Below are positions 27,789-42,400 of a DNA stretch of 51,679 nucleotides, in pieces. The stretch is taken from positions 1-51,679 of the forward strand of contig CAIQPK010000055.1 of assembly GCA_903873705.1 (NCBI GenBank), in the 5' to 3' direction. The position numbers and the translations under genes are program-made. Each line of letters opens with the position of its first letter. The first letter of the stretch is position 1. The DNA comes from an uncultured Acidobacteriota bacterium (GTDB taxonomy: Bacteria > Acidobacteriota > Terriglobia > Terriglobales > Acidobacteriaceae). The notes under the pieces were generated by a model, which saw only the letters and a list, made by a program, of their open reading frames with translations, was not told where the DNA came from and did not search any database.

Positions 27789-29093
27789 ATGCCACCCCTC
27801 ACCCGCCGCAGCTTCATCGCCCTCTCCGCCGCTGCCGCCGCCACTTCCCGCCAACTCCTCGCAGCACCACATCACACCGACGCCTTCACCCTCGTAGCCA
27901 CCCAGGACCGCACCCGCATCCTCCGCCAGGCCGCCCTCTACCTCCACGAACCTCCGCAAACCCTAACCGACTTCCCCGCCCCACCCAGTCCCAACCGCCC
28001 TCCCAGCCCGCACGACTTCTTCTCTGAATCCGACTACTTCTGGCCCAACCCCGCCAACCCCACCGGCCCCTACAAAGAGATCGACGGCAAGTCCAACCCT
28101 GACAACTTCAACGGCCACCGCCGCGCCATGATCCGCCTCTCCCAGGCCTGCCCCGCGCTCACCGCCGCCTTCGTCCTCACCCGCAACAAACCATACGCCC
28201 AGGCCGCCGCCGCCCACCTCCGCGCCTGGTTCATCACCCCCGCCACCCGCATGAATCCCAACCTCGAGTACGCGCAAGGCGTCCGCAACGGCGTCCACGG
28301 CCGCTCCTACGGCATCATCGACACCCTCCACCTCGTCGAAGTAGCCCGCGCCGCCACCTTCCTCGCTGCCTTCTTCACCCCCACTGAGCTCACCACCCTC
28401 CACCAATGGTTCCGCGACTACCTCCTCTGGCTAACCACCAGCCCCAACGGCATCAAAGAGCGCGATGCCACCAACAACCACAGCATCTGCTGGTCCCTCC
28501 AGGCCGCCGAGTTCGCCCGCCTCATCAACGACACAGCCACCCTAGCCGACCTCCGCACCCGCTTCACCACCATCCAACTCCCCGTCCAGATGGCCCCCAA
28601 CGGCAGCTTCCCCCGCGAACTAGCCCGCACCAAGCCCTATGGCTACTCCATCTTCAACTTCGACTGCATGGCCACCCTCTGCTGGAGCCTCTCGTCTTCC
28701 CTACCCTCAAACAACGTCATCTCGACCGGAGCGCGCAGCGCGCAGCGGAGAGATCCCCGCATTTCGGACCCGCACACTGCGCCATCTGAACCCTGGGCCC
28801 TGAACCCTGGACCCTCGTCGCTGACGCACTTCACTCTCCCCGACGGCCGCAGCATCTGCCGCGCCGCCGACTTCCTCTACCCCTACCTGGCCGACAAATC
28901 CACCTGGCCCTACCCCCACGACATCCAGCACTGGGAATCCTGGCCCGTCCGCTCCCCCGGCCTGCTCTTTTGCGGCCTCGCCTGCGCGCACCCCGACTAC
29001 CTCACCCTCTGGCGCAACCTAAACCCCGACCCCACCGACCCCGAAGTCATCCGCAACTTCCCCATCCGCCAACCGATCCTTTGGGTTGCGTAG
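27789..29093 (+). CDS. Secreted alginate-lyase-like polysaccharide lyase (PL5 type)
   Basis: A 434-residue protein. A Tat-type signal (RRSFIALSAAAAATS) exports it folded. The (alpha/alpha)n barrel of AlgL-like lyases is supported by QGVRNGVHGRSYGIID, the catalytic Asn-His in ATNNHSICW (N230, H231) and the Arg/Tyr segment RELARTKPYGYSIFNF. Such enzymes cleave uronate polysaccharides by beta-elimination. Residues about 310-344 (VISTGARSAQRR through EPWALNPGPSS) look foreign to the fold: they are translated from a palindromic repeat plus four heptamers. AGGAG lies 5 nt before the ATG. Substrate specificity is unknown. Confidence 0.85.
   Translation: MPPLTRRSFIALSAAAAATSRQLLAAPHHTDAFTLVATQDRTRILRQAALYLHEPPQTLTDFPAPPSPNRPPSPHDFFSESDYFWPNPANPTGPYKEIDGKSNPDNFNGHRRAMIRLSQACPALTAAFVLTRNKPYAQAAAAHLRAWFITPATRMNPNLEYAQGVRNGVHGRSYGIIDTLHLVEVARAATFLAAFFTPTELTTLHQWFRDYLLWLTTSPNGIKERDATNNHSICWSLQAAEFARLINDTATLADLRTRFTTIQLPVQMAPNGSFPRELARTKPYGYSIFNFDCMATLCWSLSSSLPSNNVISTGARSAQRRDPRISDPHTAPSEPWALNPGPSSLTHFTLPDGRSICRAADFLYPYLADKSTWPYPHDIQHWESWPVRSPGLLFCGLACAHPDYLTLWRNLNPDPTDPEVIRNFPIRQPILWVA
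28716..28764 (+). repeat. CGACCGGAGC-type palindromic repeat inside a CDS
   Basis: Starts GTCATCTCGACCGGAGCG and ends GCGGAGAGATCCCCGCATTT. A related copy with a different centre is at 40577-40635. Here it is in frame inside the alginate-lyase-like gene and is followed within 25 bp by CCCTGRR heptamers. Confidence 0.85.
28787..28818 (+). repeat. Heptamer array (four units) inside the alginate-lyase-like gene
   Basis: CTGAA, then CCCTGGG, CCCTGAA, CCCTGGA, CCCTCGT. On the minus strand this gives four GGG tracts with 4-nt spacers. It shares its left flank (TCTGAACCCTGGGCCCTG) with the larger array at 30295-30371. Confidence 0.85.
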
Positions 29094-29691: not shown

Positions 29692-29739
29692 ATTTTCGAT
29701 CTGCCAATCTACAAGCGCCAACGGCGCGCTCTATACCAG

Positions 29740-29794
29740 CCCAGGGCGAAGCCCTGGGTCCACCACCGAAAGAAGTTCAGAGGGCTGAAAGCCC
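29740..29794 (+). repeat. Double-hairpin repeat element, copy 1
   Basis: First hairpin CCCAGGGC-GAA-GCCCTGGG (29740-29758); second GGGCT-GAA-AGCCC (29782-29794). The layout, two short stems with 3-4-nt loops separated by about 20 nt, is like 42406-42470. It lies between a plus-strand gene end and the folK end, so it may also terminate both. Confidence 0.6.
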
Positions 29795-29810: not shown

Positions 29811-30278
29811 CTAACCCAACCCCGCCAGCATCTCCCCCACCGTCGACCCCAACCCCGGATGCCGCCACTCCCCCGCAATCTCCGCCAGCGGCTCCAGCAC
29901 AAACCGCCGCTCCGCCATCGCCGGATGCGGCACCACCAGCTCCGCCGTCTCCATCACCACGTCCCCAAACAGCAGCAAATCCAGGTCAATCACCCGAGGC
30001 CCCTTAGCCGCCACCGCCGCCCGGTCCCGCCCCATCTCACGCTCAATCCCCAGCAACCGGCGCAGCAGCTCCACCGGCTCCAGCGTCGTCTCCACCACCG
30101 CCGCCGCATTCAAAAACCGAGGCTGCTCCAAATACCCTACCGGCTCCGTATCGTAGAACCCCGAAACGGCCACCACCCGTCCCACCGCCACCAACCGCCG
30201 CAGCGCCTCCCCCAAATTCTCTTCCCGCCCCCCAAACACCGACGGCAAATTCGACCCCAACGCCACCGCCGCCCGCAC
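29811..30278 (-). CDS. folK: 2-amino-4-hydroxy-6-hydroxymethyldihydropteridine pyrophosphokinase
   Basis: A 155-residue HPPK, which pyrophosphorylates hydroxymethyl-dihydropterin in folate synthesis. VALGSNLPS opens the fold; FYDTEPVGYLEQPRFLNAAA is the pterin-binding region, and GPRVIDLDLLLFGD carries the Mg/ATP aspartates. GTG 30278 gives normal length (about 159 in E. coli). A second GTG at 30371 overlaps the lpxC stop (GTGA) in the same frame; starting there would add 31 residues (LRAQGSGPRAQG-like) encoded by heptamer repeats. Coupling to lpxC favours the upstream start, and family length favours the downstream one. In either case the G-rich array lies in the mRNA. Confidence 0.9.
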   Translation of the reverse strand: MRAAVALGSNLPSVFGGREENLGEALRRLVAVGRVVAVSGFYDTEPVGYLEQPRFLNAAAVVETTLEPVELLRRLLGIEREMGRDRAAVAAKGPRVIDLDLLLFGDVVMETAELVVPHPAMAERRFVLEPLAEIAGEWRHPGLGSTVGEMLAGLG

Positions 30279-30294
30279 TCTTCCGCCTTCTGAA

Positions 30295-30371
30295 CCCTGG
30301 GCCCTGGGCCCTGGGCCCTGAGCCCTCGGCCCTGAACCCTGGGCCCTGAGCCCTGAACCCTCGCCCCTCAC
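30295..30371 (-). repeat. Eleven-unit GGGNNNA heptamer array between lpxC and folK
   Basis: On the plus strand: CCCTGGG x3, CCCTGAG, CCCTCGG, CCCTGAA, CCCTGGG, CCCTGAG, CCCTGAA, CCCTCGC, CCCTCAC. On the sense (minus) strand this is eleven GGG tracts, each separated by 4 nt, starting at the lpxC stop codon. It fits the G3N1-7 G-quadruplex rule many times over. Confidence 0.95.
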
Positions 30372-31315
30372 GCCTGCGAAGCCACCAGCGCCCGCATCCC
30401 ACTCGCCTTCTCCACCACCGGCTCCTCTTCATACCGATGCGCCAGCACCCACGCCGACCTATCTGCCATCAGCCGCTGCACCAGCGCCGTATGCATCGCA
30501 TGTCCGGCCCGCTCAGCCACCACGCGTCCCCATATCCGCCGCCCCGCCAGCGCCAGGTCGCCAATCAAATCCAGCACCTTGTGCCGCACAAACTCATCCG
30601 GAAACCGCAGCTCCCCGTTCTGCACTTCACCCTTGCCAATAATGATGGCGCACTGATCGCTCGCCCCGCGGATCAGCCCCATATCCCGCAGCATCGGCTC
30701 ATCCTCGCGAAACCCGAACGTCCGCGCCGGCGCAATCAGCTCCGCATACGCCCCCGTCTCCAGGTCGCCAATAAACGTCTCATGCCCAATCGGGTCCGGA
30801 AAGTCGATCGTGTAGTGAATCCCATAACCTTCCCCCGGATACACCCCGATAAACTTCGTCCCCTCCCGCACTTCCACTTCTTTCAGAATCTTGATGTACT
30901 CCCGCTTGCGCCGCTGCACCTTCATCCCCGCGCCCACAATCGCGTCCACGTAAGGCTTTGCGCTGCCATCCAGGATCGGCACCTCCAGGTTGTCCACCTC
31001 GACGATGACGTTATCCACGCCCAGCCCAATCAAGGCCGAGAGCAGGTGCTCGGTCGTCGAAATCAGCACACCCTGCCGCATCAGGCTCGTCGCATAGCTC
31101 ACCTTCGCGACGTTCCGCCCGATCGCCGGAATCTCAAAGTTGTCCAGGTCCACCCGCCGAAAAACAATCCCCGACCCCGCCGGCGCCGGCACCAGCCGCA
31201 GCGTTACCCCGGCACCGGAGTGCAGCCCAATGCCATGAAAGCCGAGTGGCGAAGCGATCGTGCGTTCAAACTGCGGCTCAGCGCCCAAGCGGCTCCTCAA
31301 AAAATGGCGTGACAC
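30368..31315 (-). CDS. lpxC: UDP-3-O-acyl-N-acetylglucosamine deacetylase
   Basis: A 315-residue zinc deacetylase, the committed step of lipid A synthesis. FERTIASPLGFHGIGLHSG opens domain 1; STTEHLLSAL carries the general base E89 and zinc ligand H90; FVRHKVLDLIGDLAL gives H245 and D249; GHAMHTALV gives H272 (E. coli H265). GTG 31315 is the outermost start. A TTG at 31288 with GAGGAG 4 nt upstream would make a 306-residue protein nearer the family length and is a real alternative. folK follows with a GTGA overlap if its outer start is used. Confidence 0.95.
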   Translation of the reverse strand: MSRHFLRSRLGAEPQFERTIASPLGFHGIGLHSGAGVTLRLVPAPAGSGIVFRRVDLDNFEIPAIGRNVAKVSYATSLMRQGVLISTTEHLLSALIGLGVDNVIVEVDNLEVPILDGSAKPYVDAIVGAGMKVQRRKREYIKILKEVEVREGTKFIGVYPGEGYGIHYTIDFPDPIGHETFIGDLETGAYAELIAPARTFGFREDEPMLRDMGLIRGASDQCAIIIGKGEVQNGELRFPDEFVRHKVLDLIGDLALAGRRIWGRVVAERAGHAMHTALVQRLMADRSAWVLAHRYEEEPVVEKASGMRALVASQA

Positions 31316-40635: not shown

Positions 40636-40784
40636 GCACTTGCCGTTGCCTTTGCACTTGCCTTTGCACTTACCGTTGCATTTGCACTTGCCGTTGCCGT
40701 TGCCGTTGCCTTTGCCGTTGCCTTTGCCTTTGCCTTCGCCTTTGCCTTTACCTTTACCTTTACCTTTACCTTTACCTTTCTTTC
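40636..40784 (+). repeat. Hexamer array, TGCCTT/TGCCGT/TGCACT type
   Basis: About 24 consecutive six-base units: TGCCGT, TGCCTT and TGCACT mixed at first, then TGCCTT runs, then five TACCTT. Divergence falls from left to right, suggesting expansion at the right end. A minus-strand frame through it gives a KGKGKG/KGNGN peptide with no ribosome site and is not called as a gene. Confidence 0.95.
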
Positions 40785-40812
40785 TGTCATTCCCGAAGGG
40801 AATCTGCTTCTG
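40785..40812 (+). repeat. Short palindromic repeat, TCATTCCC family, copy 2
   Basis: TGTCATTCCCGAAGGGAATC, then TGCTTCTG; inverted arms ATTCCC/GGGAAT. Copy 1 is at 11175-11199. It separates the hexamer array from the heptamer array. Confidence 0.7.
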
Positions 40813-40832
40813 TTGTTGCTTAGCCTTTGCTT

Positions 40833-40903
40833 TATTCACTATTCACTATTCACTATTCACTCTCTACGCTCTACGCTCTACCCTCTACCCTCTACCCTCT
40901 ACC
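40833..40903 (+). repeat. Heptamer array TATTCAC x4, CTCTACG x2, CTCTACC x4
   Basis: Ten heptamers with one extra T at 40861. On the minus strand it begins 2 nt after the DinB stop and reads GGGTAGA four times (four GGG tracts spaced by 4 nt), then GCGTAGA, then GTGAATA. TATTCAC twice also occurs at about 27719-27733. Confidence 0.95.
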
Positions 40904-40905
40904 CA

Positions 40906-41457
40906 CTACTTCTCACTGCTCGGCGGCGTAATCCCCTTCAACCGCAGATAAAGCGCCAACTGCGCATACTGCTCGCTATCGTGCGAGGTATTCCCCCACA
41001 CGACGCTGATCCGCGACCGCTTTGACTTGAAGATCGTCATCACGTCAGCCAGGTTCGCATCGGTCAACGCGCCATAAGCCTTATCGCACGCGTCAAACGA
41101 CGCCTTCAGCGCCGCCACGATCGTCGCCTTGTCATCCGTATCCGCAGGCGGCTTGCCCGGAGCATCGCCGTTCATCACATTGCAGCTGGTCAACTGTGCT
41201 TCCGTCACATGGTTCAGAATCCGGGCATACGTCCGCACATCCGGCAGCGGTTTTGACGTGAATGCGTCCGCCGGCATCAATTCAGCCGACTTCAGCACAT
41301 TCACCTTGACCGCTTCATAGCTCCGCCTAGCCTCCGCCGCTGGCCCTGCCGCCGGTGCAGGAGTCGCCGCCGGCATCGCCATTCCCGCCATCTGCGCCAT
41401 CGCCACACCGCTCGACAACACCATCGCCGCCGCCACCATCAAACTCATTCGCCGCAT
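40906..41457 (-). CDS. Exported DinB-family protein
   Basis: A 183-residue protein. A signal peptide (LMVAAAMVLSSGVAMAQ) and a Met/Ala/Pro spacer precede a four-helix DinB/YfiT fold: YARILNHVTEAQLTSCNVMN carries the first His, and VVWGNTSHDSEQYAQLALYL the second with the helix-4 pattern. DinB proteins of this kind bind a divalent metal or act as thiol-dependent transferases (bacillithiol or mycothiol S-transferases). Periplasmic DinB proteins are a recurrent group in this phylum. GAGG lies 6 nt before ATG 41457. A GGGTAGA heptamer array begins right after the stop. Confidence 0.87.
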   Translation of the reverse strand: MRRMSLMVAAAMVLSSGVAMAQMAGMAMPAATPAPAAGPAAEARRSYEAVKVNVLKSAELMPADAFTSKPLPDVRTYARILNHVTEAQLTSCNVMNGDAPGKPPADTDDKATIVAALKASFDACDKAYGALTDANLADVMTIFKSKRSRISVVWGNTSHDSEQYAQLALYLRLKGITPPSSEK

Positions 41458-42253: not shown

Positions 42254-42400
42254 GTTGCCGTTGTTCTTGCCCTTGCCGTCGCCGGTGCCGGTGCCGGTGG
42301 CCCTTGCCCTTGCCCTTGTCTTTGTCTTTGTCTTTGTCTTTGTCTTTGTCTTTGTCTTTGTCTTTATCTTTGTCTTTGTCTTTGCCTTTGCCCTTGCTTC
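42254..42400 (+). repeat. Hexamer array, TTGCCG / CCGGTG / CCCTTG / TCTTTG type
   Basis: Begins with mixed TTGCCG and CCGGTG units, continues as CCCTTG x3, then about a dozen TCTTTG units with one TCTTTA, and ends TTTGCC-TTTGCCC. The rest of the 42.1-42.5 kb gap holds palindromic repeats and no gene. Confidence 0.93.

Follow-up and report, generated by a model that had tools for sequence, protein, structure and literature searches.

A heptamer array at the lpxC-folK junction of an uncultured Acidobacteriota bacterium is probably a half copy of a palindromic repeat dispersed between genes and, with the frame kept, within protein genes

The array of G-rich heptamers between lpxC and folK in the window (the whole stretch of DNA analysed, 51,679 nucleotides) is best explained as a half copy of a dispersed palindromic repeat. 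The complete element consists of a GCGA edge, about four GGGNNCA units, the inner motif GARRGC, a loop and a mirrored arm, and the family occupies intergenic gaps as well as, in frame, loops of many proteins; we put the probability of this explanation as a whole, architecture and distribution together, at roughly 0.78. The element would be tolerated DNA, probably selfish.

On the minus strand the array (30291-30367) directly abuts the lpxC stop codon (30370-30368; lpxC, 30368-31315, minus strand) and is composed of GGGGCGA followed by ten GGGNNNA units, which would form the left arm of the element; GGGGCGA may itself be read as the GCGA edge. The initial annotation of eleven heptamers starting at the lpxC stop with an exact period of 7 was borne out, but the description of the heptamers as perfect holds for the period and not for the unit sequence, which differs in the three N positions. 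With its 11 units the array is the longest in the sample from its own genome. It is followed by GAAGGC (30285-30290, minus strand), a form of the inner motif often found 3' of arrays in this genome, which supplies AAGG 7 nt upstream of the inner folK start GTG (30276-30278, minus strand) at the conserved FolK N-terminus. The gap between the last unit and this GTG (GAAGGCGGAAGA) measures 12 nt and not the 17 nt given initially. The array also folds as hairpins (z -3.15, with 1 of 200 shuffles equally good). A search of Rfam revealed no family covering the array; a mir-769 match, with 23 bits against a cut-off of 57, fell far short and was discarded.

The folK gene (HPPK; 29811-30371, minus strand) can be read from the outer GTG (30369-30371, minus strand) as a protein of 186 aa or from the inner GTG as one of 155 aa. 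The outer GTG overlaps the lpxC stop (GTGA); as had been noticed, it shares the FolK reading frame and precedes the inner GTG by 31 codons, so that 31 residues would be added. In the longer reading of 186 aa the Pfam HPPK match starts with residue 36, and an alignment of FolK with 18 relatives starts at the inner start or a few residues before it. Pairing with the anti-Shine-Dalgarno sequence was about equal for both codons (-6.7 kcal/mol for the outer and -5.5 kcal/mol for the inner GTG). Among 21 relatives, 5 have their nearest folK start overlapping the end of lpxC, so the outer GTG may be an older, coupled start. The repeat-coded N-terminal extension proposed earlier is possible, the frame being open and its peptide type (EGSGPRAQGP...) being found also inside other G000 proteins, but the inner GTG is equally in frame. 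We consider two readings equally likely: translation of FolK from the outer GTG, which would give it a repeat-coded tail, or from the inner GTG, for which GAAGG of the element would be the ribosome site. In either case, one repeat copy would have landed at or just after the lpxC/folK start, would then have grown beyond the usual four units, and would now be the folK leader or N-terminal tail.

The heptamer pattern recurs throughout the 4.18-Mb genome. Four-unit GGGNNNA gave 96 matches and its reversed form 12; for three GGGNNCA units followed by GGG, the corresponding counts were 52 and 0 (overlapping matches counted in both cases), indicating that the array is not due to chance. The LpxC matches, of which the best reached 69%, place this genome near Acidobacteriaceae. 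Matches to the GGGNNCA pattern occur in 21 of 61 genomes and to the broader GGGNNNA pattern in 35 of 61, the reversed control of the latter also matching in several, while AGGGNNCAGGGNNCAGAANGC gave 61 whole-genome matches in 11 of 61 genomes and none for its reversed control. On the other hand, no array of three or more G-tracts was found in the lpxC-folK gap at any of the 22 congener loci with both genes readable, where the gap ranges from 2 to 1,099 bases; these counts omit G024, G006 and one of the two contigs of G026, in which folK was not found, as well as three loci from other genera. By eye, the G021 gap has a different heptamer, CCCATCA. The tie of the array to folK that was initially assumed is thus unsupported, since the repeat is dispersed and the readable congeners lack it at this junction.

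A common anatomy is shared by the copies. The hexamer GARNRC directly follows the array in 26 of 48 arrays of the own-genome sample and in 26 of 41 from relatives, against a background of 0.0057 per position, and never directly precedes it in the same 48 and 41 arrays; the exact inner motif is absent directly after the last unit in 22 of 48 and 15 of 41, respectively. Among 34 arrays with a terminal CCA or TCA unit, 97% have an A just 5', often as GCGA, and GARRGC-like hexamers on the 3' side. Pairs of arrays no more than 150 bp apart face each other, G-rich then C-rich, in 9 of 11 cases in the own genome and 10 of 12 in relatives, and the opposite orientation was not found in either set. A loose pattern detected a mirrored arm within 130 nt for 18 of 34 arrays, and four full copies chosen by hand gave z -5.6 to -6.9 when folded as long hairpins. 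Half elements are common among the copies. They may come from full ones, since one locus shared by the near-sisters G022 and G002 holds the full palindrome in one species and the left arm alone in the other.

In a period scan of the fetched stretches, which had been preselected by a period-7 pattern, period 7 reached 87 and period 14 reached 12, while the remaining periods from 4 to 15 lay at 0-4. Four units were the commonest array length, most sampled stretches having been picked for a four-unit match. Adjacent units were identical in 51 of 188 cases in the own-genome sample, twice as often as expected from composition (0.136), indicating that some tandem duplication occurs; in relatives the count was 27 of 156 (expected 0.128). 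One array (L078, 10195-10236) has GGGTTTA units, the heptamer of the plant telomere repeat, which we take as a coincidence.

Sampled stretches were chosen for holding arrays regardless of their position relative to genes, and genes were called by a purpose-written codon-score script (coding fraction 0.83). Within predicted genes lie 36 of 60 arrays of the own genome, with 4 more overlapping gene ends, and 18 of 49 arrays of the relatives. A Pfam or PDB match was found for 18 of 22 host genes, and 4 of the 22 had no Pfam match; the hosts include DNA polymerase I, ValS, Tgt, TsaD, MnmG, UvrA, TrpE, an RNB ribonuclease and a ribonucleotide reductase. The window itself has a second copy, 1.5 kb from the folK array: a four-unit array (28787-28814, minus strand) in frame in a gene with an alginate lyase domain (PF05426; 27789-29093, plus strand), where the C-rich strand reads SEPWALNPGP. 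The adjoining stretch NNVISTGARSAQRRDPRISDPHTAP (28710-28786, plus strand; left edge uncertain) resembles another repeat that stands beside other arrays.

Copies can remain readable because GGGNNCA units never give a stop codon on the G-rich strand, whichever frame is used, and interrupt the C-rich strand only where the in-phase unit reads TGA (TGG is often found instead). Three successive heptamers traverse all frames, and GGGNNTA units bring TAG or TAA. Arrays with a GGGNNTA unit accounted for 5 of 36 genic arrays against 15 of 24 not wholly in genes in the own genome (P 0.0002), and for 4 of 18 genic against 20 of 31 other arrays in relatives (P 0.007), a scarcity to be expected if copies persist in genes only when readable. 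G033 belongs to another genus; its returned loci contain 12 distinct arrays, of which 1 lies within a predicted gene, the genes being scored there mainly with the codon table of the relatives, and all 12 hold a GGGNNTA unit.

Formation of a G-quadruplex by the folK array is plausible by analogy: as initially stated, the sense strand carries a G3N4 series that conforms to the usual quadruplex rule, and the heptamers GGGAATC and GGGGAYT form quadruplexes in vitro (PMC4692102). That an RNA or DNA quadruplex in the folK leader would damp translation is nevertheless rather unlikely, given that no readable congener has an array at this junction, that the C-rich strand is the sense strand in 27 of the 36 in-gene arrays of the own genome, and that the folK array has the hairpin as an alternative.

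The half-copy explanation places the repeat beside several known systems. The heptamers GGGAATC and GGGGA(C/T)T described from Xanthomonas and Nostoc (Rehm et al. 2015, PMC4692102) are, as presented there, likewise dispersed and G-rich, with four units preferred, facing inverted pairs and G3N4 spacing, but are 89-93% intergenic in Xanthomonas; here the unit is GGGNNCA, the inner motif is GARRGC and more than half of the sampled own-genome arrays are genic and thus not mostly intergenic, the count of genic arrays in relatives being 18 of 49. REP elements, described as short, palindromic, present in many copies and seldom overlapping protein-coding regions (PMC12306157), share the first three features but not the extragenic location. 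The coding palindromes of Nematomorpha mitochondria (PMC6649704) are also inverted repeats in translated genes, but both of their arms are described as encoding conserved protein regions, whereas the heptamer repeats are inserted into variable loops. Rickettsia is, according to PMC10969869, the best-known case of frequent palindromic inserts that keep the frame; by that account its palindromic elements (RPE; Ogata et al. 2000/2002) measure about 150 bp and encode a conserved peptide. Like RPE, the heptamer elements are short palindromic repeats, dispersed, and in many cases in frame in unrelated protein genes: the dispersed copies share the palindrome, and in-frame inserts absent from homologues were found in the four proteins aligned. 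Unlike RPE, to which we liken them by description only, they occur in Acidobacteriota, and their arms are G-rich with a period of 7 and variable letters, and are read in either direction. The genomes of the genus range from 2.2 to 6.5 Mb, and their owners are therefore probably not endosymbionts. No paper on such elements in Acidobacteriota was among the matches listed by a literature search, outside which subscription journals mostly lie.

Alignments showed that conserved enzymes carry in-frame inserts where the arrays lie. In ValS, at a full palindrome, 32 residues take the place of two in the ValRS of 1gax (+30 aa), and TsaD has 8 aa more than 8iey at its array. Compared with 10fb, Tgt has an insert at each of its two arrays; the first aligned segment is short and weak, but an alignment with congeners shows the same first insert site. 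An AlphaFold2 model of Tgt (18 sequences) had a mean pLDDT of 61, with both inserts below 50 as is much else, and is not used as evidence because the low values extend well beyond the inserts.

The same loops hold different occupants in different species. In the 26-row Tgt alignment, where site 1 was unreadable in two rows (G026, G023) and site 2 in one (G023), loop 1 is bare in 10 of 24 readable rows, with NAEIIL right after the helix, and holds varied peptides in others, such as repeated PTSQNRDVGHP in G021. The loops of MnmG, aligned with the exclusion of two matches read as paralogues (G019, G020), contain C-type heptamers in G000 and G024, GGGATTA and GGGAACA types in G027, and elsewhere either peptides of other repeats (RPERSAVERP and LRSAQDDN types, labelled by reading) or little. 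Heptamers at MnmG site C require at least five changes on the tree with 26 rows, or only 2 once the 15 rows that carry other inserts have been dropped; the count is rough because 9 of 23 inner tree branches are open and the site labels were set by reading the alignment. By eye, two PolA sites of G002 and G022 match two PolA sites of G000. A separate coding repeat of the PTSQNRDVGHP type is present in three tandem copies in one loop of G021 Tgt (L143), and also at L138 and L141.

The flanks of G022 and G002 are 92-95% identical, and the two species differ in their arrays. Some arrays are present in just one of them, and above mnmG a palindrome of G022 corresponds to other sequence in G002. Four orthologous arrays all keep four units while their letters change. 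In their left arms, differences affected 2 of 64 framework positions against 15 of 48 N positions (P 7e-5); the two right arms that were counted gave 8 of 32 and 6 of 24, with no contrast, and both arms pooled gave 10 of 96 against 21 of 72 (P 0.002). Exchange of units between copies is thus only hinted at, because the right arms lack the contrast seen in the left arms. Because the copies differ, they do not fit a simple scenario in which one sequence was recently transposed. A cellular activity might spread and rewrite the repeats, keeping arm length and heptad framework while changing the N letters; the family would then be adapted to coding, and the loops of conserved proteins would be shared landing sites across the genus for several competing repeat families. 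We regard this proposal as unlikely.

What counts against the preferred explanation, a dispersed palindromic family, is that no copy was seen moving and no target duplication was shown for the heptamer family. REP elements are tied to RAYT genes, and a REP-like element moved by a transposase of this type (Y1) could account for short palindromes in many copies. Genes matching PF01797 occur in 52 of 61 genomes, and two of them lie 0.5-0.6 kb from arrays (C34 of the own genome and C3 of G024). Within the genus, all genomes rich in GGGNNCA have Y1 genes, and the two genomes without them (G009 and G011, both incomplete) have no GGGNNCA match. Across the own genome and the 60 relatives searched, however, Y1 counts do not clearly follow the repeat: G037 (27 GGGNNCA matches, control 1) and G043 (7 matches, control 0), which are of another family, lack a PF01797 match, whereas G058 combines 10 Y1 genes with the absence of arrays, and G014 has four Y1 genes but no GGGNNCA match. 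In addition, the Y1 gene of C34 seems from the ORF list to have a different flanking repeat, and many copies of the array are not extragenic. The picture is mixed, and we regard mobilization by Y1 transposases as improbable. At L072 (8996-9436, minus strand), translated ORFs point to a Y1 (RAYT-type) gene apparently flanked by its own, different repeat.

It is similarly improbable that linkers rich in Pro, Gly and Ser expanded in place by slippage, with no dispersal. Several host sites do look like linkers by eye (the C-terminal part of ribonucleotide reductase, PolA) and some units are duplicated, but this would not explain why palindromic arms face each other, nor why GARRGC recurs across unrelated genes and gaps and across ten further genomes. 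Least probable of all is a phase-variable microsatellite in which slippage toggles a coupled folK start in and out of frame: a period of 7 does shift the frame, and the folK array is long and adjacent identical units are in excess in the own-genome sample, but the switching by copy number suggested in the initial annotation is unsupported, and slippage unlikely to cause it, because the units are mixed, unit number is kept in all four G022/G002 orthologues (a species-level comparison) and most sampled own-genome arrays are in genes, among them tgt and also polA, valS and uvrA, where a 7-nt change shifts the frame; the inner GTG, moreover, could start FolK whatever the unit number.

With several kinds of repeat at the same Tgt and MnmG loops, and by eye in PolA, insertion into conserved proteins has been replicated naturally. 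Comparing these cases can address the spread of such repeats and the tolerance of individual protein loops for new peptides. Annotation of these genomes should take into account that leaders, N-termini and linkers may derive from repeats.

Some further repeats and motifs were observed. TilS of G022 (L131) has, at alignment columns of about 540-610, an in-frame insert absent from G002, with a gene stretch of about 20 bp repeated at its flanks and palindromic ends, as judged by eye. Just past the 3' end of folK, Rfam matched Acido-Lenti-1 (RF01687) at 29714-29758 of the window (minus strand; 41 bits, cut-off 37). Simple sequence repeat arrays are located at 40640-40909 and 42255-42390 of the window, with TTGCCT x23, TATTCAC x4, CTCTACC x7 and TTGTCT x12.5.
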